Source: Bradyrhizobium commune (GTDB taxonomy: Bacteria > Pseudomonadota > Alphaproteobacteria > Rhizobiales > Xanthobacteraceae). From it: 64,000 nucleotides of DNA. The position numbers and the translations under genes are program-made. Where the stretch lies: NCBI RefSeq assembly GCF_015624505.1, contig NZ_CP061379.1:3658001-3722000 (forward strand). Reading direction: 5' to 3'. The notes beneath the pieces were generated by a model. That model searched no databases, was not told the DNA's origin, and saw only the letters and a list, made by a program, of their open reading frames with translations. Shown one piece after another: positions 3,119 to 13,641 of this stretch; positions within the stretch are counted from its first letter, which is position 1, and the number at the start of each line of letters is the position of its first letter.

Positions 3119-5398
3119 ATGGGATGGCCGGACAGATCCGCTACATTGATCGAGCCGCGTGACGGCGTGACCGCCGGTCTCGGCGAGCGCGAGCTGCGTC
3201 GTATTCGCGCCAAGCAGATCGAGGCGGTGACGCAGCTGATCCCGGTGACGATGGCCGTCACCATGCTCAACGTCGCCATCGTGCTGATCCTGTTCTGGGG
3301 CCGGGGCTGGAACGACTTCCTCGCGATCTGGGGCCTGACGCTCGCTACCACCGCCTCGCTCGCGGTGCGATCATGGCGACGATCCCATCGGGATCCGCCG
3401 CAGGAAGCCACAAGCCGCGCGATGCGGCAGACGACGCGGCAGGCGTTCTTCATCGCCGCGATCTGGGGCACGCTGCCGCTCGCGCTGTTCAGCCGGGTCG
3501 AGCCGACCGGCCAGCTGATCCTGGCCTGCCTGATGGTCGGCATGATGTCGGGCGGCGCCTTCACGCTCTCGACCTTCCCGCGCGCCGGCCTCGTCTATCT
3601 CGCGACCATGACGATTGCCTGCGCCGACGCGATGCTGTTGTGCGGCACCGGGCCCTATGCCATGACCGCGGTGTTCCTGCTGCTGTTCGCGTTCTTCATG
3701 GCGCGCAACATCGTCTCGCAGGGCAATCTGTTTCTCGGCAATCTCAACGCGCAGCTCGAGCTCGAACGCCAGACCGAAATCATCTCGCTGCTGTTGAAAG
3801 ACTTTCAGGACAACGCCAGCGACTGGCTGTGGCAGACCGACGCCGAAGGCCATCTGGTCGACGTGCCCGAACGCTTCGCCGATGTCGCGCAGCTGCCGCT
3901 TCCGCTTCTGAAGGGATCGCACTTCGCCGACGTGCTCGACATGCTGTGTCCCGAGGACAAGGCGGCCGCCTACAACATCGTCGGCCTGATGGAGCACGCC
4001 GAGCCGCTGCACGAGATGAACCTCAAGGTCGTCGCCGGCGGTGAAGCGCGGCTGTGGTCGCTGACCGCAAAGCCGGCCTACGACCGCGACGGACAATTTC
4101 TGGGCTATCGCGGCTTCGGCCGCGACGTCACCGAGCGCTGGCGCGCGGAGAAGGCCGAAGCCGAGAGCCGCGCCAAGTCGGACTTTCTGGCGGTCATGAG
4201 CCACGAAATCCGCACGCCCATGAACGGCGTGCTCGGCCTTGCCAGCATGCTGCTGGAGACCAAGCTCGACCCGGAGCAGCACGAGGCCGTCACCACGATC
4301 CGCGAATCCGGCGACAATCTCCAGCGCATCCTCAACGACATTCTCGATCTCTCCAAGCTCGAGGCCGGCCGTTTCCAATTCGAGGCGATCGACTTTGCGC
4401 CGCAGACGCTGGTCGAGACGGTCGCGACCGTTGCCCGTGCCAGCGCCAAGAGCAAGGGGCTCACGGTCAAGGTCGAGCTCGATCCGAACCTGCCGCCGAC
4501 GCTGCGCGGCGACGTCGCGCGCATCCGCCAGGTGCTGCTCAACCTCGCATCGAACGCCGTGAAGTTCACCGACCAGGGCGAGGTGACGATAGCGGCGACC
4601 TGCCCGGCGCGGCGCGATCTGCTCGCGACCGTCGAATGGACCGTGACCGACAGCGGTATCGGCATTGCGCCCGAGAAGCTCGGACAGCTCTTCTCGGACT
4701 TCGCCCAGGCCGACGCCTCGATCAGCCGCCGCTTCGGCGGCACTGGCCTGGGGCTTGCGATCTCCCGGCGCATCATCGAGCAGATGGGCGGCACCATCGG
4801 CGTCACGTCGATGCCGGGCGAGGGCTCGACCTTCCGCTTCACGCTGGTGCTGCCCTGGAGCCAGGCCCAGGCCTCCGACCATGACGCGGGTCGCGACGAA
4901 GCCGACGATCTCAAGGCCCGCATCGTGACCCTCGACCGGCCGCTGAAAGTGCTGGTCGCCGAGGACGACGCCGTCAACCGCATGGTCGTGAGCAAGATGC
5001 TCAGCGCCTTCGATGTCGAGCTCAGGGTCGTCACCGACGGTGTCGAGGCTGTGGAGGCCGTGTCCGAAAGCGATTACGACGTCGTGCTGATGGATGTGCG
5101 CATGCCGGAAATGGACGGCCTTGCCGCGACGCGCACAATCCGCGCCGAAGGCGGCCGCTTCGCCGCGTTGCCGATCATCGCGCTGACCGCCAACGCCTTC
5201 CCCGACGATATCAAGGTCTGCCGCGAGGCCGGCATGTCCGACTTTCTGGCCAAACCGCTCCGCAAGCCGGCGCTCGTCGCGGCCCTGCTGTGCGCGCTGG
5301 ACGGACACGTGATGACTGAGGACGCGCTGCTGCAGCCGGAGCTGATGCCTGATGAGTTGGAGTGGACCGACGAGGAAAGGCAGATGACGGGCGCGTAG
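3119..5398 (+). CDS. Hybrid sensor histidine kinase with response-regulator receiver, 759 aa
   Basis: Membrane sensor kinase of unknown signal. Residues ~40-200 hold several hydrophobic segments forming a membrane sensor region. A PAS-like domain follows at ~225-345 ([16 protein letters not shown]). The HisKA box has the phosphoacceptor His362 in [11 protein letters not shown]. The HATPase carries a [19 protein letters not shown] box near residue 545. A C-terminal receiver has Asp659 in [13 protein letters not shown] and a conserved KPL lysine. There is no separate response-regulator gene beside it, so the output may pass by phosphorelay to a distant partner. The receiver lacks an output domain. 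Confidence 0.93.
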
Positions 5399-5445
5399 AC
5401 GGCGGTCGGGCCGTGTCACCGACGCACCGATAGAGGTACTCACCC

Positions 5446-6060
5446 ATGTCTTCGCTGATCGTGATCGGTCGTCTCTTCCTTCCCTACAGGGGGCATATCA
5501 ACGACATCGGCTTTTGCAGCGGCTCAGACCAGACCCTATCACATCGTCCTCCCCGGCCTGAGAGCGTGCCATACGATTTCTGGTGTTCGGACAGGTTCCT
5601 ATCCTTGGGCCGCGACGAAGCGAGCTCTTCAATCGGAAGCGTGGAAGTCAGCGAGGCCTTGGTCTACGACAATCGAATGCATTCGGAGATCGACTTTACC
5701 GGTTTCAGCGTGACGGTGTCTTTGCAAGAACACGCATACGAAGCCTATTTGGACTATATCGGCGAAGTGCGAATTGAGCTTGGCGATCTCGATGCGTGGG
5801 ATGGCCGCATTCTGCTTCGCATTCCTTCGCGGCCGTTCGCATTTCCGCTGCCGCGTGGCAGCACTACCCCGTGGGAGACGAGAAAGCCGGTTGTCGGCCA
5901 ACTGAAGTCGATCAGAGGGTTCGCCTTCGATGAGATCGAAATTCAGGCGCTTCGAGACGAGCAGGGCCGCAAGGTGAAGTTCGACCACGGCACGTGCGAA
6001 GAGCGTGCTGGTTGGCAGCCAGCCTTGTCCCTGCGGGCTCAACGGAGCGCGAGCGCTTGA
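5446..6060 (+). CDS. Unrecognised protein, ~204 aa
   Basis: I do not recognise this protein. It starts at an ATG preceded by a weak GAGGT. It is acidic and mostly soluble, with a plausible beta-rich centre (ALVYDNRMHSEIDFTGFSVT, then VRIELGDLDAWDGRIL). Base composition and codon use look less GC-biased than in the flanking genes. The last ~20 residues (GWQPALSLRAQRSASA) look like read-through into intergenic sequence, which suggests a gene whose 3' end was altered. It lies between the hybrid kinase and the convergent Lrp-type regulator. Coding status is likely but not certain. Confidence 0.5.
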   Translation: MSSLIVIGRLFLPYRGHINDIGFCSGSDQTLSHRPPRPESVPYDFWCSDRFLSLGRDEASSSIGSVEVSEALVYDNRMHSEIDFTGFSVTVSLQEHAYEAYLDYIGEVRIELGDLDAWDGRILLRIPSRPFAFPLPRGSTTPWETRKPVVGQLKSIRGFAFDEIEIQALRDEQGRKVKFDHGTCEERAGWQPALSLRAQRSASA

Positions 6061-7154: not shown

Positions 7155-7895
7155 TCAATGAATTTCTTGACTGAGGCTATCCACATACGTCTTGGCTTCC
7201 AGGAGGTCGGCACCCGTTTCCGCCCGGACAAGAGCAATTGCCGCAATGGGGTTGCGGTCGTGCACCAGTCTGTTCACGCGCTCCAGCACATCGTCTGGCA
7301 ACCTGATCCGAGGATTTGGATCAGCCCCACGAGTCTCCGCGCGGATCGCTGAAGCGATTTTGTCGGTCCACTTGACCACGTCCGCATAACGCTCGGCGTA
7401 TCCGCACGCGACGAGCGCGGCAGTCTCGTGCTCGAATTCAGCCGCCGGCTTGAACGGTTCTGAACCTGAACAAAGCTGCGTCCCATCGGGGCCATAGTCG
7501 CATGCAGTTTCGAGATATGCCTCGAGCAGGCGTTCGAATAACGCGTCGGGAAGCTCACCACAGGCAAGCACGCCCGCCCGTGTCTCAGGAGCTGGGAAGA
7601 ACCTATACACAGCGAACGTTTCCTCGCCCGGACGCCGCTTTGCATCAACGTATTGCTGCCGAGTCATGCCTTGGTGGCCACTCCCGGTCGCTACCAAAGC
7701 CAAGGCGACCCCGAGTTCCCAAAGCACGTAGCAGCCGTCCTCGAACGGAGTTTGTGCGTAATGCCAATAGTAGCCCGGCGGGTCGACTGGTTCGAGCGTC
7801 ATCGAAAGGCGACGCGCGAGACCAACGGCAAGTTCCGCAGCCAATCGAAGGCGCATCGACGGCCGATCGATCATTCCGTCATCCTGATCATTCAT
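7155..7895 (-). CDS. Unrecognised protein with ribosomal L7/L12-like C-terminal segment, 246 aa
   Basis: I do not recognise the full protein. The last ~40 residues (NRLVHDRNPIAAIALVRAET then EAKTYVDSL) match the pattern of the L7/L12 C-terminal domain, I-x-A-I-x-L-V-R-x-x-T-G-x-x-L-x-E-A-K-x-x-V. Such segments also occur fused to non-ribosomal bacterial proteins. A WTDKIASAI motif near residue 175 recurs in the protein at 8591-9337. It is the last gene of a three-gene leftward operon, six bases after the preceding stop. No signal peptide or membrane segment was seen. The start could also be an internal Met at residue 8 or 14. Confidence 0.7.
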   Translation of the reverse strand: MNDQDDGMIDRPSMRLRLAAELAVGLARRLSMTLEPVDPPGYYWHYAQTPFEDGCYVLWELGVALALVATGSGHQGMTRQQYVDAKRRPGEETFAVYRFFPAPETRAGVLACGELPDALFERLLEAYLETACDYGPDGTQLCSGSEPFKPAAEFEHETAALVACGYAERYADVVKWTDKIASAIRAETRGADPNPRIRLPDDVLERVNRLVHDRNPIAAIALVRAETGADLLEAKTYVDSLSQEIH

Positions 7896-7901
7896 GATCG
7901 A

Positions 7902-8588
7902 TCAGGTTTCCTTTCGCCAATTTCTGGGATCGTCATAGGGCGAGCCACCCACGTCGGCATAGCGTTCGCGATAATCCTTGGAGTTGCAAAGGTAATTTCG
8001 CAAAAGAAAGATCCGGAAGCGCCTTGCGGCTTCCGCACGTTCGGCCGGAGAGCGATAGCCGGCATCGTCTGCGGCAAGCGCCTCCAATCGTTCCAGACTG
8101 GACACACGGCCGTACAACCACAGGGCATTGTACGCGCCTTGATCCTCCTGAATCATGGCAAATTCGGAGGAAATGCCGATGTCGTTCAATCGACGGACGG
8201 CAGCCTGGAACGCGGGGTCGGCCTCGTAGTATGTACGCGCGGCCTGCATGCTCTCGCCCAACTGAGCTTTTTCTTCCGCAGTGGCGTCACGTCGGTTGAA
8301 CATGATGGTATGGACTTCGGCTCGACCGAACTGAAGTGCGACTGTGGTGTAGAAACGATCATTCAATTTGAAGTGCCGAAAATATCGGTAGTATTTGAGA
8401 AGGCCGCGCCCTCCGGCATCGTGAAGCGGATTGAAGAGCCAGCGCCAGCCATTCTCGATCCCGAAATGCGTTGGCGGATTGTGAGAGGTAAAGCGTTTCA
8501 AACGAGCTGCGACTATGTTGCTCAGTAGCGAGCCCGGTTCGAGGAGGCGCAAGAACAAGTCATCCGGTTGACCGCTCCGCGCGGCCAT
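7902..8588 (-). CDS. Unrecognised protein, 228 aa
   Basis: I do not recognise this protein. It is charged and predicted soluble, rich in aromatic residues (GWRWLFNPLHDAGG, LLKYYRYFRHFKLNDRFY), with a helical second half (AERAEAARRFRIFLLRNYL) and a polar tail ending in Lys-Glu-Thr. It is the middle gene of a tight three-gene operon, starting two bases after the stop of the upstream gene. That spacing suggests co-translation and shared function. The aromatic N-terminal half could bind a partner, but there is no catalytic signature I can name. Confidence 0.65.
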   Translation of the reverse strand: MAARSGQPDDLFLRLLEPGSLLSNIVAARLKRFTSHNPPTHFGIENGWRWLFNPLHDAGGRGLLKYYRYFRHFKLNDRFYTTVALQFGRAEVHTIMFNRRDATAEEKAQLGESMQAARTYYEADPAFQAAVRRLNDIGISSEFAMIQEDQGAYNALWLYGRVSSLERLEALAADDAGYRSPAERAEAARRFRIFLLRNYLCNSKDYRERYADVGGSPYDDPRNWRKET

Positions 8589-8590
8589 GG

Positions 8591-9337
8591 CTAGTTAACC
8601 TCGCGCGTCAGCGGGTCGTCAGCACCCTGGACCAGCTCTACCAATCGCGTTGCTTCATCACCGACCGCGGCGAGGCGCCACCATGGTGCCTCGTCGGCAG
8701 TATCGGGCAGCCACACACCATCGATCCAACGCGCTGCTAACGCTTTGACCACGTCTATTCTGTTACCCTTCAGCGCCGCGAGCCTGACATCCGCGGGAAT
8801 GCCGGCCAGGGCCTTGCGCATGTCCAGATCGACGTCCCGCTCCTCGAGCTCCTGGCGCGACAAATTGGCCCCGTCCCAGCAGCCCGTCATCTGCATCGCG
8901 CGGCCGATCTTGTCCGTCCATATGAAGGCATTGCCGGCTGGCCGGACGTAATCCAGCGCCGCAAGCGCATCCATCGCGGGCCTGATGTCGTCATGCGGGA
9001 CAAAGGGCAGGCGCGTGAGCGACGGATGACCCTCCTGGCCTGCAACCAAGAGCCACGCTTCAAGGACCTCGTCGATCGGCGGCAATTTGACCTGGCTATC
9101 CCGCGATCGCTCCGCAACGAAGTGCGCAATCCGGTCACCATCGATCGCCAGTTTGTTGTCAGGAGTCGCGACTCCCAGCTGATGGAGAATGAGCAACGCG
9201 CCTTCATAGGCAGACAGGCCGCCTGAACCATCGAGCTTGGCGCCAACGCGGGTGCGCGGCTCGCCCGGCTCACAGCGATCCGTGGTGGCGCGCACAAGGG
9301 AGGCGGCAAGCTCGCCGTAAAGTCTGTGATTTCCCAT
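8591..9337 (-). CDS. Unrecognised protein with WTDKI motif, 248 aa
   Basis: First gene of the leftward operon. I do not recognise a family. The segment DYVRPAGNAFIWTDKIGRAM (residues ~145-165) parallels GYAERYADVVKWTDKIASAI in the protein at 7155-7895. This suggests that the two share a small domain, possibly a winged-helix-like module in which the motif forms the last strand and helix. Before it is a helical region that includes VLEAWLLVAGQEGHPSLTRL. The C-terminal part is acidic and rich in Trp (APWWRLAAVGDEATRLVELV). It diverges from the Gly-Gly protein gene across a 293-base region. Confidence 0.65.
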   Translation of the reverse strand: MGNHRLYGELAASLVRATTDRCEPGEPRTRVGAKLDGSGGLSAYEGALLILHQLGVATPDNKLAIDGDRIAHFVAERSRDSQVKLPPIDEVLEAWLLVAGQEGHPSLTRLPFVPHDDIRPAMDALAALDYVRPAGNAFIWTDKIGRAMQMTGCWDGANLSRQELEERDVDLDMRKALAGIPADVRLAALKGNRIDVVKALAARWIDGVWLPDTADEAPWWRLAAVGDEATRLVELVQGADDPLTREVN

Positions 9338-9630
9338 CGCGCGAGCGATAGCATGGGCAATGTGGACGAACCGTAAAACCTGGTGGTGACGGACGACTGG
9401 GATGTGGCGCTACGATAGCGGGGCCTGTGAGGCGGCGGATGACGCTTCGCTCATCCGCGGATGTCGAATGAAGCAATCCAAATTTCTGCAAATCGTCGTG
9501 AAGACATGTGCCGGTATATCAACCATAACGTGGAAAGTAGTATAATACTCCTTCCACAACCACCCTTATTCTTGGAATCGTAATCTCCGCTAGCCATCCT
9601 CCCGGCGCGAACATGCCGGGAGGGCGATGC
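9338..9630. promoter_or_regulatory. Divergent intergenic control region with a consensus -10 box
   Basis: This 293-base gap separates the leftward three-gene operon from the rightward Gly-Gly/DUF4132 pair. It is clearly richer in A and T than the genes. A perfect TATAAT lies at 9541-9546, inside the short dyad AGTATAATACT (9539-9549), about 85 bases before the start at 9631. No convincing -35 was seen. The dyad overlapping the -10 could be an operator. GGGAGGG at 9617-9623 is a good ribosome-binding site for 9631. Confidence 0.4.
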
Positions 9631-10089
9631 ATGAATGCGGTGCTGGACATCTATGACGAGCAGCGGCCGGGCGCCGAACGCCAGTTGCGTCACCGGCTCG
9701 AATTGCCGGCCGAACGGATAACGGCGCGCGACCTGATCCGGAGCCGCATAGAAGCGGACGTGGCCATCCATAATGCCATGGAACGTGCACGCCTTGACGG
9801 GACGATCGCCGCCCAGGACGCCAACCGCGACACGCGCAACGAATGGCTGGTGTTGCCCGGCTGGGTCGAGCGTGCCCTGAACGGCCTGCGCGCATATGGT
9901 CCCGGCCTCGAACGTCTGCACCCGATCAAAAGCGAGCCCTTGGTCGCAGTCGCGCTCGAGGCCTTCGCGAAGAACGGTTTCTTCATGATCTTCGACGGCC
10001 GTCAGATCGTTGATCTCGACGAGGTTCTGACGGTCAAGGAAGACAGCGCCGTGACCTTTCTCCGTCTCGTGCCACTCGTTGGCGGATGA
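9631..10089 (+). CDS. Small protein with MoaD/ubiquitin-like Gly-Gly C-terminus, 152 aa
   Basis: I do not recognise a named family. The protein ends exactly in Gly-Gly. Its last 35 residues (GFFMIFDGRQIVDLDEVL, then AVTFLRLVPLVGG) run like the last strands and tail of MoaD, ThiS or ubiquitin. The N-terminal part (HRLELPAERITARDLIRSRI then EADVAIHNA) reads as a strand followed by an amphipathic helix, as in the first half of a beta-grasp fold. Residues ~50-100 would then be a helical insert. ATG 9631 is preferred over 9613 because GGGAGGG lies 7 bases upstream. It precedes the DUF4132 gene by 60 bases. No E1-like ThiF or JAB protease is nearby. The fold is inference. Confidence 0.7.
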   Translation: MNAVLDIYDEQRPGAERQLRHRLELPAERITARDLIRSRIEADVAIHNAMERARLDGTIAAQDANRDTRNEWLVLPGWVERALNGLRAYGPGLERLHPIKSEPLVAVALEAFAKNGFFMIFDGRQIVDLDEVLTVKEDSAVTFLRLVPLVGG

Positions 10090-10149
10090 GCGGAAGCGCG
10101 AACCGCCACCCTCGCTCACCGCTCGCCGCTTGCTGAAGGATGCTTGTCC

Positions 10150-13100
10150 ATGGCGCTGTTCGACGTGTTCAAATCGAAGGTGCGGACCCTCGAAGATTGG
10201 TCGCCCGACGTTCCGTGGTCCAATGTCGACGTAGCCGCGCTTATCGCGGATATGCGCCGGACTAACGTTCCGGCGCTGGACAAGATCATCATCGACGTCA
10301 TTGACGATCATGGTCGGCACCGCTGGTTGGAGGTGAGAGGCGAGGTGCGTCGGGTTGTCGAGGCATTGTACGAGGCCGAAAAGATGCGACTGCTCGGCCG
10401 GACAACCCTAATCGAGGCTGCATTACAATCCCTGTTTGCTCGCTTTGGCTGCCGCCCGGAACACGGGTCTTTCTTTCACAACATTCATGACTGGGAAGGA
10501 CTCATTCGCGACGCCATCCACGCAAGTGGCGCAATGAACATGAAATTGGATGATCTGGCGACCCTGGACATCGTGCGCGCCGCACGGTGCAGGCTCAGTC
10601 GCGGAGCGAGGCGAGAACTTCGCGACATCGCTCGACTGCTTGTCGAGAAAGTCCCTGAACCGATGAGCGCCGTTCAGCGCCGCTCGCTGGTCGATCTCGC
10701 CGGATTAGTCGACAAGGCGCCGTGGAAGGCCTGGGATTACCGGGAGGTGCTTCAATCTATCGAGCCAATGTTCGCCAAGATCGGCCGTCCACTTGCCGAG
10801 AGCGATGTCTTCGTCAAGGATCAACAGCTGAAGGGGATTGCTGAAGCCGCGTTTGAATATGTTTGCGGAGGAATAAGCCCGCCGCTCAAAACGGTGATCC
10901 GAGGAATATATGAGGACGACAGCGCCCGGGATTTCGAGAAGCGCCCGGGCATTTCCGAGTTGCAGGCGTCGACGCCTGAAGCGAAGGGTGAATTGCTCGC
11001 CCTGATCGTCGACGTTTACCTGCGCGTCGTCGCACTTCGCGATTCAAAGGCTCCCAACTTCCCTGCGTACAACGAGATCAGCGCGCACCTTGCAATCGCA
11101 CGACTTGTTCCCGGCACAAAGCTTGTGACGCACAGAGGGAATTACGCCAGCGGGTTGGGCGAACTCGTTGCAGTCGTGCTCAAGAAAAAGATCATCGCGG
11201 ATGACCGGACGTCGGCGGAACTGCTTGCGACGATGCCAAGGTGGGACGCCCTGCAGGACATGCGTGTCGTGAAAATTATCCTCGCGACGATCGCCGCCGG
11301 GCCCGCGCCGCTCACCCGAAAAGCCGCTCAGGATCTCCTTTCGGATACTTCGGCGACCTTCGATGGAAAGGGACGCGCATCTCGCGTCCAGGCGCTGGAA
11401 GCACTCGGTGCTGCGCTCGAATCCCGCGCGTTCGCCACCGATCCTGGGCAATCGATCGAGCTGCCGCTCCCTCCGCGCCCCGTATTCGAACCCATCACGG
11501 CCAAATCCGTCGTGCTCAGGAGCCTATGGGACTATTACGGCGATCTGTCGGACTTCCGCAAATGCTCGGCGGAGGACCGCGCCTATGTGGAGCAGTGCCT
11601 TCGCAGACCGCCACCTCGCCCGCCGGCCGAAGGAACGCTCTCACTGATCCAAGCGGCAGCGATGGCCCTGCGCGCGCTCAGCACGGCTGATGAGGCCGAC
11701 GTAGACGCCGGACCGTTGCTCGCGCGCATGGGCAAGCTGTCGGAGATTCCGCAGGAGCTGCGCGCGCCGTGGAAGTCGCTGCATATCCGCGCGCTCGAGC
11801 TGGAGGGAAAGAGCAGTCCATCTGGCAAGTGGCTCAAGGCGGCTCACGAGACGCTTTCCGGCCTCTCGCCCCAGCAGAAGATCGCTTTTCTTGGGGCGGT
11901 GCTCGATATGCCGGGGCCCTCCGGGGTTCTTGCCCGAGCGGCGGTCTACCTGGCTGCGGAGTGGTCGCCCGACGCCGTCGGACCCATGCTGGCGCGGCAC
12001 GCTCAGAACGTGTGTTTCCAAAGCATTCCGTCCTGGGGCATGCGCGACGAGCGCCTGGGCAACGCCTGCCTGTGGGCCTTGATCCATTTGCCGCAAGGCG
12101 GCGGCGTGCCCTATCTCGCGCGGCTGCTGTCGCGGGTGAAATATCCGAAGGTGAAAAAGCGCATCGAGGCGGCGCTGAACGAGGCGGCGGCCGAGGCGGG
12201 CATCACCCGCGGCGAGCTCGACGAGCTGTCGGTCCCGACCCATGACCTCGATGCTCACGGCACCGCCGAAATCGCCGTTGGCGAGGGCGCGGCGCTGCTT
12301 GCGATCGCGGGCACGGCCTCGGTCGAGGTGACGTGGCGCGCGGCGAACGGGAAAGTCTCGAAATCTGTCCCGGCCGTCCTCAAGGAGCGCAAGGATGCCA
12401 TCAAGGCGGTCAAGGCGCTCGCCAAGGAGATCGAGGCCGATCTATCCGTCCAGCCGCAACGCCTGCAACGCTTGTGGCTCGATGACCGGCGCTGGGCGGC
12501 GGAGGTCTGGCGGCAACGCTATGCGGAGCATCCGCTGGTTGGCGCGCTGAGCCGCCGGCTGATCTGGAATGTGCATCACGGCGACGATCGGGTCGCTGTC
12601 GCATGGTCGGGTGGCGGCATGACCGACGTGAGCGGCAAGCCGGTCTCGATCGACGGCGCGGAGATCACACTCTGGCACCCGATCGGCTGTACGGTCGGGG
12701 AGGTGATGGCCTGGCGGGAGAGGCTCGGCGCGCTCGATATCACGCAGCCGTTCAAGCAGGCACACCGGGAAGTGTATCTTGTCACCGAGGCCGAACGGCG
12801 CACCGGCGCCTATTCGAATCGTTTTGCCGGGCACATCGTCAAGCAGCACCAGCTCATGGCGCTGGCGCGCCTCAATGGCTGGATGGTGACGCATCGGATC
12901 TGGGCCGACAGGCCCAACGACGAGCCGACGCACATCGTGCTGCCGCGGCAGGGTCTCGTCGCGGAATTCTGGACCGCGGGCGCCGGTGGCGATGATCCCG
13001 AGGTCACCGATGCCCAGGCGTATCTCTATCTGACGACCGACCAGCTCCGCTTCTACCGGATCGCAAATCCTGCCGAGGCCGTCGTCGCATCGGCTCGCGG

Positions 13101-13641
13101 CCCGGAAAGGGGAGCAGCCGCCAACATCGAGGATGTCCCGCCGCTCGCGCTGTCCGAGGTGATGCGCCATTGCGACCTGTTCGTCGGCGTCGCCTCCGTC
13201 GCGAATGACCCCAATTGGGCCGACGGCGGCCGAGACGCTGAACACCCCAACCAGTGGCGCCGTACGATCGGCGCCGATTACTGGCAGGCACGGGCTTTCG
13301 GCGATCTCGGTGCGATGGCCGAGACGCGCCTCGCCCTGTTGACGTCCCTTCTGCCGAGCCTTGCCATCGGCAAGGTCAGCCGTATCGTCGATGGCAAATT
13401 TCTGCGCGTCGAGGGCAAGCGGCACGCCTACAAGATCCACCTTGGCTCCGGCAACATCCTCATGGAGCCTGCCGGCCGGTATCTGTGCATCGTCCCGGCG
13501 ACCGCGAATGTGGCTCGGGCCGACGTGCGCTTGCCGTTCGAGGGCGACAACATGCTCTCGATCATCCTGTCAAAGGCAGCGATGCTTGCCGACGACGACA
13601 AGATCACCGACGCCAGCATCCTGAGCCAGCTCGGACGGTGA
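10150..13641 (+). CDS. DUF4132 domain-containing large protein, 1163 aa
   Basis: Cytoplasmic protein of unknown function, related in its C-terminal half to E. coli YehI. Residues ~1-720 are helical and solenoid-like. The DUF4132 core at ~780-960 shows the family landmarks: HPLVGALSRRLIWN, ITLWHPIGCTVGEVMAWRER, ITQPFKQAHREVYLVTEAE, and YSNRFAGHIVKQHQ. A C-terminal module (~1010-1130, HCDLFVGVASVANDPNW, YWQARAFGDLGAMAETRLAL) resembles the separate domain that follows DUF4132 in related proteins. No WGR domain is visible. ATG 10150 has GAAGGA 9 bases upstream; a TTG at 10144 is less likely. It is probably co-transcribed with the Gly-Gly gene. Confidence 0.85.
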   Translation: MALFDVFKSKVRTLEDWSPDVPWSNVDVAALIADMRRTNVPALDKIIIDVIDDHGRHRWLEVRGEVRRVVEALYEAEKMRLLGRTTLIEAALQSLFARFGCRPEHGSFFHNIHDWEGLIRDAIHASGAMNMKLDDLATLDIVRAARCRLSRGARRELRDIARLLVEKVPEPMSAVQRRSLVDLAGLVDKAPWKAWDYREVLQSIEPMFAKIGRPLAESDVFVKDQQLKGIAEAAFEYVCGGISPPLKTVIRGIYEDDSARDFEKRPGISELQASTPEAKGELLALIVDVYLRVVALRDSKAPNFPAYNEISAHLAIARLVPGTKLVTHRGNYASGLGELVAVVLKKKIIADDRTSAELLATMPRWDALQDMRVVKIILATIAAGPAPLTRKAAQDLLSDTSATFDGKGRASRVQALEALGAALESRAFATDPGQSIELPLPPRPVFEPITAKSVVLRSLWDYYGDLSDFRKCSAEDRAYVEQCLRRPPPRPPAEGTLSLIQAAAMALRALSTADEADVDAGPLLARMGKLSEIPQELRAPWKSLHIRALELEGKSSPSGKWLKAAHETLSGLSPQQKIAFLGAVLDMPGPSGVLARAAVYLAAEWSPDAVGPMLARHAQNVCFQSIPSWGMRDERLGNACLWALIHLPQGGGVPYLARLLSRVKYPKVKKRIEAALNEAAAEAGITRGELDELSVPTHDLDAHGTAEIAVGEGAALLAIAGTASVEVTWRAANGKVSKSVPAVLKERKDAIKAVKALAKEIEADLSVQPQRLQRLWLDDRRWAAEVWRQRYAEHPLVGALSRRLIWNVHHGDDRVAVAWSGGGMTDVSGKPVSIDGAEITLWHPIGCTVGEVMAWRERLGALDITQPFKQAHREVYLVTEAERRTGAYSNRFAGHIVKQHQLMALARLNGWMVTHRIWADRPNDEPTHIVLPRQGLVAEFWTAGAGGDDPEVTDAQAYLYLTTDQLRFYRIANPAEAVVASARGPERGAAANIEDVPPLALSEVMRHCDLFVGVASVANDPNWADGGRDAEHPNQWRRTIGADYWQARAFGDLGAMAETRLALLTSLLPSLAIGKVSRIVDGKFLRVEGKRHAYKIHLGSGNILMEPAGRYLCIVPATANVARADVRLPFEGDNMLSIILSKAAMLADDDKITDASILSQLGR

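Follow-up and report, generated by a model that had tools for sequence, protein, structure and literature searches.

We analyzed a 64,000-nucleotide stretch of the Bradyrhizobium commune genome (contig NZ_CP061379.1, positions 3,658,001 to 3,722,000 of the forward strand), which from here on is referred to as the window and whose own numbering is used throughout. It contains the gene of a small ubiquitin-like (Ubl-like) protein followed on the same strand by that of a large partner, and the features considered below are as follows.

9618..9624, + strand: GGGAGGG, a ribosome-binding-site-like run preceding the ATG at 9631 (read from the sequence).
9631..10089, + strand: Ubl-like protein of 152 amino acids with a free C-terminal Gly-Gly (reading frame translation, homologue searches).
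10066..10086, + strand: conserved C-terminal tail LVPLVGG (columns invariant or nearly so in family alignments).
10150..13641, + strand: partner protein of 1163 amino acids (DUF4132 + DUF7737), with an ATG start 60 nt after the Ubl stop.
12349..12882, + strand: DUF4132 domain (PF13569), residues 734-911 of the partner (E 1.9e-46, 158.7 bits against a cut-off of 27).
13318..13632, + strand: DUF7737 domain (PF24879), residues 1057-1161 (E 7.1e-34, 116.3 bits against a cut-off of 27).
13438..13440, + strand: His1097 of DUF7737, conserved, in the motif YxIHLGSG (partner alignments).
13486..13488, + strand: Cys1113 of DUF7737, conserved, in the motif YLCIVP, lost jointly with the Gly-Gly (partner alignments).

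Translation of the plus-strand frame 9631-10089 ends in VTFLRLVPLVGG, followed by the stop codon, with LRLVPLVGG as the last residues, and the next ATG lies at 10150; this confirms the exact Gly-Gly end and the 60-nt distance to the DUF4132 gene given in a preliminary description of this DNA. An in-frame ATG at 9613, upstream of the start at 9631, would make a protein of 158 amino acids. A sigma-70-like promoter or a terminator was not found when positions 9300-10200 were scanned, and LexA-type boxes (GAACN7GAAC, at most one mismatch) occur 48 times in the window against 43.8 expected, with none in 9480-9630. Upstream of the Ubl gene, three minus-strand genes at 7155-9337 have no family above the cut-off, the product of 7155-7895 showing weak C-terminal matches to the ribosomal L7/L12 C-terminal domain and to CATASP.

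A first protein search returned 116 relatives of the 152-residue protein, with Bradyrhizobium proteins among the closest named ones. Of the 117 sequences that these make together with the window protein, 105 end in Gly-Gly, and the remaining 12 stop before the tail, diverge or are fused. In a second search, a profile built from 23 sequences matched 6470 of the 8000 candidates scored; 120 of these matches were listed, and each of the 118 that had not been listed before ends in Gly-Gly. We conclude that the family is very large and lacks a Pfam model and that its terminal Gly-Gly is conserved across phyla. The preliminary description had raised the question of whether the Gly-Gly is invariant; it is kept in the 105 of 117 and, among the matches listed, in the 118 of 118 sequences, but it has been lost in a Bacteroidota set and in some planctomycete and actinobacterial members. 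Full-length members are mostly about 108-170 amino acids long. None of the 108 members compared with Pfam and NCBIfam models had a match above the cut-off: three matched ThiS (PF02597) weakly (best E 0.019) and one matched the SAMP2 model (E 0.11), all below the cut-off, and weak matches to UvrA_inter (best 8.4e-4) and to PRK00517 (best 1.4e-3) were each seen in 19 members. Among the matches listed, a Pfam domain was absent from all proteins except one fused record (P0093). The scan of species genomes, for its part, used the peptide pattern F[LV]RLVPLVG and yielded 56 loci (L002-L057); tail conservation in these loci is there by construction and is therefore not counted as evidence on the tail. 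Among the pairs analyzed below, the positions before the Gly-Gly vary (LVPLVGG, LTLLVGG, LTALAGG and LTPLKGG, among others).

When the family was aligned by hhalign with MoaD, CysO-type and ThiS alignments of 15, 14 and 3 sequences, respectively (CysO being what we here take as the name for one group of PF02597 matches), the values obtained were 0.9%, 0.3% and 0.2%, no better than those of the reversed control (1.3%, 0.1% and 0.2%), whereas MoaD, CysO and ThiS, as the positive control, detected each other at 94-95%. The Ubl profile gave one weak match to a solved structure, a complex I subunit (E 0.96). The beta-grasp fold proposed in the preliminary description accordingly stands as a putative one, with outside support from the published structure prediction for the D. 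radiodurans homologue DRA0165 described below. The genome, a single contig of 7,622,528 bases, has separate ThiS and MoaD proteins and encodes one clear MoeB/ThiF-type E1 elsewhere, together with one weak partial match. With the genome's own MoeB as the query, a MoeB/ThiF relative was absent from the window, in agreement with the earlier statement that no E1 is encoded here. The preliminary description had also proposed to look for ThiF/E1 genes that co-occur with the pair; a MoeB relative was found in only 1 of the 56 loci (L053), of which 36 span at least 20 kb. In L053, the MoeB relative lies at 5045-5725, about 4 kb upstream of the Ubl gene.

We found the same gene pair widely in other genomes, as the preliminary description had proposed to look for: a DUF4132 protein was detected by tblastn at 49 of the 56 loci. 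Among the seven loci without one (L007, L013, L018, L019, L024, L025 and L038), L018 and L025 have contig-end ORFs that cluster with DUF4132 proteins, the genomes of L007, L013, L019 and L024 carry DUF7737 away from the Ubl gene, and in the genome of L038 DUF7737 was not found. Overall, DUF7737 is present in 19 of the 20 searchable genomes, which were drawn from 22 loci. The two genes lie on the same strand in 77 of 81 partner rows (rows with a Ubl match at E 1e-6 in the region), and in 67 of these 77 the partner start codon nearest the Ubl stop, as chosen by script, falls at -8 to +89 nt. In four Streptomyces loci (L026, L028, L031 and L049), the Ubl gene is encoded on one strand and the DUF4132 gene on the other, with a few kb between them. 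Clustering of ORFs recovered the partner in 46 loci and the Ubl in 32, and every other cluster was confined to 7 loci or fewer out of 56. The resolution of this test is low, as the ORF caller recovered the Ubl itself in only 32 of 56 loci. E2 and JAB genes were looked for by this clustering alone, and no third ORF cluster recurs above 7 of 56 loci. In blastn comparisons with other Bradyrhizobium loci (L002-L004), only the Ubl gene, the partner gene and the directly adjoining bases match the window, and the pair lies at different places in these genomes, which indicates an accessory module. PADLOC returned nothing for the window proteins; on 9 proteins it gave one weak Cas4b match (E 0.035, P0109), and P0109 had no match in the phage collection.

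We then consider whole genomes. DUF7737 was found in 2 of 119 actinobacterial, 6 of 194 cyanobacterial and 3 of 248 window-family genomes, and in the same sets the Ubl profile matched 5, 5 and 2 genomes, respectively, in a first scan that, for some genomes, did not score every candidate and could therefore miss a divergent Ubl. A Ubl ending in Gly-Gly was found in 2, 5 and 2 genomes, and all nine of these lie inside the 11 DUF7737 genomes; three of the nine are the centre genomes, which had been selected for carrying the pair, and without them 6 of 6 Gly-Gly Ubl genomes lie inside the remaining 8. A Ubl was not found in two of the DUF7737 genomes: G241, in which the Cys is lost, and G506, in which the match lies at a contig start.

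The most informative part of the pair is DUF7737 and its Cys, which the preliminary description missed. An alignment of 50 partners, from the tail-selected loci and the window, shows the Cys in 47 sequences and a gap at its position in the other 3. The conserved His stands 16 residues before the Cys in the window partner; in L154 it is replaced by Asn with the Cys and the Gly-Gly kept, and in the fragment L110 the Cys is present and the His replaced, which argues that a strict Cys-His dyad is not needed. Complete partner rows are about 780-1740 amino acids long. Neither the DUF4132+DUF7737 nor the DUF7737 profile matched a solved structure at E up to 10. We dropped an E2-like interpretation of the H...C motif of DUF7737, because the spacing differs and the present data lend it no support. 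The genome that contains the Kiloniellales locus L005 has two adjoining DUF4132-DUF7737 genes (L160).

We compared the state of the Cys with that of the Ubl C terminus in 77 pairs, in each of which partner and Ubl homologue came from one fetched region. Both the Cys and the Gly-Gly are present in 73 pairs, both are lost in four, and no pair is mixed. As 45 of the 77 pairs were found by the tail or are the window (44 from the tail-selected scan plus the window itself), we note that the 32 partner-found pairs, some of which lie in genomes that the tail scan also caught, split into 28 with both and four with neither. In these four, the Cys is replaced by Phe or Ala and the Ubl ends in AGA (L149 and L150), SG (L152) or GRLW (L122). 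The Cys-less partners, which surfaced in searches begun from the partner, carry Phe in L149 and L150 (two loci of one planctomycete), L152 and Acetobacter L124; Ala in Bacteroides finegoldii L122 and, per alignment, L155; Val in L151; and, per alignment, Asp in the cyanobacterium L108. In a broader set of 89, where a Ubl elsewhere in the genome or record was scored as present and none seen as absent, 81 have both, seven have neither and one is mixed. The mixed case, L156, has the Cys, a degenerate DUF4132 with H843 replaced by Arg and no Ubl in the fetched region; for L124, L155 and L156, the absence of a Ubl refers to the fetched region only. Among the open frames listed for L151, L155, L156, L108 and L124 there is no recognizable Ubl, and for L151 Ubl information is absent. 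Of the other rows, L110_1 and L157_1 were unaligned before the 77-pair count; YehI, L005_1, L022_1, L057_1 and L109_1 were dropped as truncated or frame-broken (L109, left out of the count, has both the Cys and the Gly-Gly); the L126-L131 rows were dropped for want of a DUF7737 alignment or of a recognizable DUF7737 (L129 and L130); and L001, L093-L098, L104, L106, L107, L125, L134, L141, L161, L162 and the ThiS/ThiF loci were skipped as duplicate or partnerless.

On a tree of 90 rows, made by a quick search with the Cys column blanked, each trait changes three times in the strict set of pairs and six times in the broad set (with the Cys taken over all 90 rows). The strict-set losses fall on three branches, and three changes placed at random, weighted by branch length, would coincide with those branches with a probability of 3.6e-6. 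Independent-pairs sign tests, which had too few pairs to draw on, gave 2 of 2 in the strict set (p 0.5) and 3.8 of 4 on average in the broader set (median p 0.125). All eight Cys-less rows keep the His and ten DUF4132 invariants (H843, Q866, Q870, R873, E874, Y876, E882, R891, E1003 and R1006 in window numbering); the changes seen in them are Arg for K869 (L124), Ala for T879 (L108 and L155), Ala for D1009 (L108) and a changed W855 (L122 and L155). The Gly-Gly and the partner are conserved, and loss of the Cys goes along with loss of the Gly-Gly but leaves most of the partner unaltered; together, these observations speak for a reaction of the Gly-Gly carboxylate with the Cys. The joint loss suggests ubiquitin-like chemistry without an earlier description, but it could also follow from a lost binding contact and not from catalysis.

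Homologues lacking the Gly-Gly had been named beforehand as the observation that would speak against a role of the tail. Such homologues do occur: a Bacteroidota set, three loci from planctomycetes and three genomes of actinobacteria contain them. In every readable case, however, the DUF7737 there is Cys-less, or no DUF7737 was found. This coincidence of Gly-Gly loss with Cys loss or DUF7737 absence strengthens the role of the tail and does not remove it. The L122 Ubl has 193 relatives, the named ones being Bacteroides; none of the 120 listed (P0236-P0355) ends in Gly-Gly, and in 107 of these an [AT]ML[SA]GR[LM]W end replaces it. The tail-less matches to the Ubl profile in the actinobacterial genomes G130, G154 and G187 end in VLERSVVASGS or VLERSVVASAS, and a genome search did not find DUF7737 in any of the three. 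Among the tail-less actinobacterial homologue loci L096-L098, L096 resembles the other two at 86-95% over the aligned parts, and no other ORFs are common to them.

One member of the family has been studied experimentally. In D. radiodurans (L118), a 134-residue Ubl ending in LRLTALAGG is followed 2 nt later by the gene of a Cys-bearing DUF4132 protein. The L118 record carries other locus tags; this pair is DRA0165-DRA0166, as established by the 412-kb replicon, the order after the thioredoxin gene and the published DdrO box. DRA0165 is matched by the family profile (E 4.6e-11 for 1e6 sequences) and by a cyanobacterial profile (2.8e-31). The available part of one report assigns DRA0165 a DdrO box at position -83 and describes an IrrE-dependent rise of DRA0166-V5 upon mitomycin C treatment (PMC8533742); the available part of another disputes the box upstream of DRA0165 (PMC9650054). 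We found the published 20-mer without a mismatch at 2056-2075 of L118, 82 nt before the start at 2138. Similar upstream sites occur in two other Deinococcus records, departing from the consensus at 2 positions in D. ficus and at 1 in D. psychrotolerans. As far as the accessible text of PMC9650054 goes, DRA0165 rises upon irradiation and H2O2 treatment, its deletion increases survival of H2O2, it binds the thioredoxin DRA0164, its predicted structure resembles MoaD/SAMP-type entries, including MOCS2, SAMP1 and MPT-synthase-related ones, and 157 co-immunoprecipitation partners were obtained with N- and C-terminal tags; such partners do not by themselves argue for covalent attachment. The same text regards DRA0165 as specific to Deinococcus; our survey contradicts this. 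Further, a D. radiodurans JAMM protease cleaves a MoaD-MoaE fusion, according to the part of PMC8832034 available.

We tentatively read the pair as a two-component Ubl system, in which a MoaD/SAMP-like modifier has its Gly-Gly carboxylate handled by the DUF7737 Cys, and we give this reading a little under an even chance. The small protein would be a carrier or modifier of the MoaD/SAMP kind, translated with its Gly-Gly carboxylate already free; a general cellular MoeB/ThiF-family E1 would first adenylate the Gly-Gly end; the DUF7737 Cys would then take it in an E2- or E3-like role, most likely as a thioester, and DUF7737 would pass the Gly-Gly protein on to a target, while DUF4132 may have a separate job that persists after the tail chemistry is lost. 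In this scheme, we infer the fold of the window member, the thioester, the E1 used, the target and the stress role outside Deinococcus. A thioester en route to transfer would be the simplest version of Gly-Gly/Cys chemistry, and it fits because the genome has a MoeB-like E1. The more specific proposal that DUF4132-DUF7737 loads and ligates its own Gly-Gly modifier, alone or with only MoeB/ThiF and without an E1 or E2 of its own, in many phyla and under DNA-damage control in Deinococcus, we regard as fairly unlikely. Against the favored two-component reading itself stand the observation that the pair has no travelling E1, with MoeB relatives at 1 of the 56 loci and none in the window, the non-significant profile comparison with MoaD, CysO and ThiS, and the failure of the DUF4132 and DUF7737 profiles to match a solved structure.

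That same MoeB/MoeZ-like character of the E1 present in the genome would also suit a sulfur carrier, on which MoeB/MoeZ and a sulfurtransferase would make a thiocarboxylate and from which the DUF7737 Cys would accept or relay sulfur for a cofactor or a thiolation, with no protein conjugation. The order and length of the tail resemble those of the genome's own MoaD (FPPMTGG) and of CysO-type proteins (PAIAGG), and the MPT-synthase-related structures listed for DRA0165, its binding to DRA0164 and the raised H2O2 survival of its deletion, all from the accessible text of PMC9650054, are consistent with such a role. We nevertheless find it doubtful, as no fixed sulfur-accepting partner is seen (the non-pair ORF clusters, not individually annotated, reach at most 7 of 56 loci), separate ThiS and MoaD already exist in the genome, and the partner is large and multidomain (about 780-1740 residues in complete rows). 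The close coupling and co-retention of the genes could instead reflect non-covalent regulation, with the Gly-Gly tail plugging a groove by the DUF7737 Cys and gating it without any tail chemistry, so that an unused contact would let both drift jointly. Such a regulator would account for a Bacteroidota pair that is useful without Gly-Gly (the new end in 107 of the 120 listed of 193 found) and for tail-less homologues that persist in three actinobacterial genomes where DUF7737 was not found; yet other tail positions vary, while Gly-Gly and Cys are fixed in 73 of 77 pairs and both lost in 4, and a binding surface leaves the covariation of a nucleophile with a free Gly-Gly carboxylate unexplained, and we judge this explanation unlikely. 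The conserved Cys, with a conserved His 16 residues earlier in the window protein, would further allow DUF7737 to be a deconjugating thiol isopeptidase that frees the small protein from targets, with the conjugation enzymes encoded elsewhere. This we consider improbable, given that L154 has Asn for the His and keeps the Cys and Gly-Gly, that no solved structure is matched at E up to 10 and that the chains end exactly at the Gly-Gly, leaving no precursor to trim.

The two-component Ubl system that we favor shares with MoaD, ThiS, CysO, SAMP and Urm1 a free C-terminal Gly-Gly after a hydrophobic stretch, and the tail order is similar (FPPVSGG in MoaD, PAIAGG in CysO-type proteins and LVPLVGG in the window). 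The present family differs in being longer, in having its own tail signature and a fixed DUF4132-DUF7737 partner, and in lacking a recurring E1 neighbour and a significant profile match to MoaD, CysO and ThiS. Bacterial Ubl conjugation operons include Cap2/Cap3 of type II CBASS, Bil and Bub. A Cys-bearing partner acting on a Gly-Gly carboxylate would follow the same logic, but the present loci are without a recurring E1 or a third recurring gene cluster. Pup, a small bacterial modifier that uses PafA, has a C-terminal Gly-Gly motif followed by a Glu/Gln end, whereas the present chain ends at the Gly-Gly itself. In the open-licence literature, the pair is not described as a Ubl system, nor is a link between the Cys and the tail, and DUF7737 is not named; the available parts of that literature on DUF4132 describe no Ubl there. 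The covariation links a widespread Gly-Gly family that has no Pfam model to a single Cys of DUF7737, and two unknown families thereby become one pair that can be tested biochemically. With the D. radiodurans pair under a DdrO box, and with a DRA0165 deletion strain and a tagged DRA0166 already published, a test could come soon, and the reading, if true, would add a bacterial ubiquitin-like system without a dedicated E1 gene.

DUF4132 is common to the window partner, to E. coli YehI and to the DUF4132 proteins of MoxR/VWA/SWIM loci. DUF7737 is not: YehI lacks it according to Pfam, and the rhizobial MoxR/VWA/SWIM-type proteins lack it in the alignment. A Ubl tail was not found beside YehI or the rhizobial DUF4132 genes, and tblastn of the E. 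coli region gave nothing better than E 0.5. The loci concerned are AAA-DUF5682-DUF4132-VWA-SWIM operons on rhizobial plasmids (L126 and L127) and the E. coli yeh locus (L060), in which DUF4132 occurs without DUF7737 and no Ubl was seen. In the yeh locus, a MoxR ATPase gene and VWA and SWIM genes accompany DUF4132.
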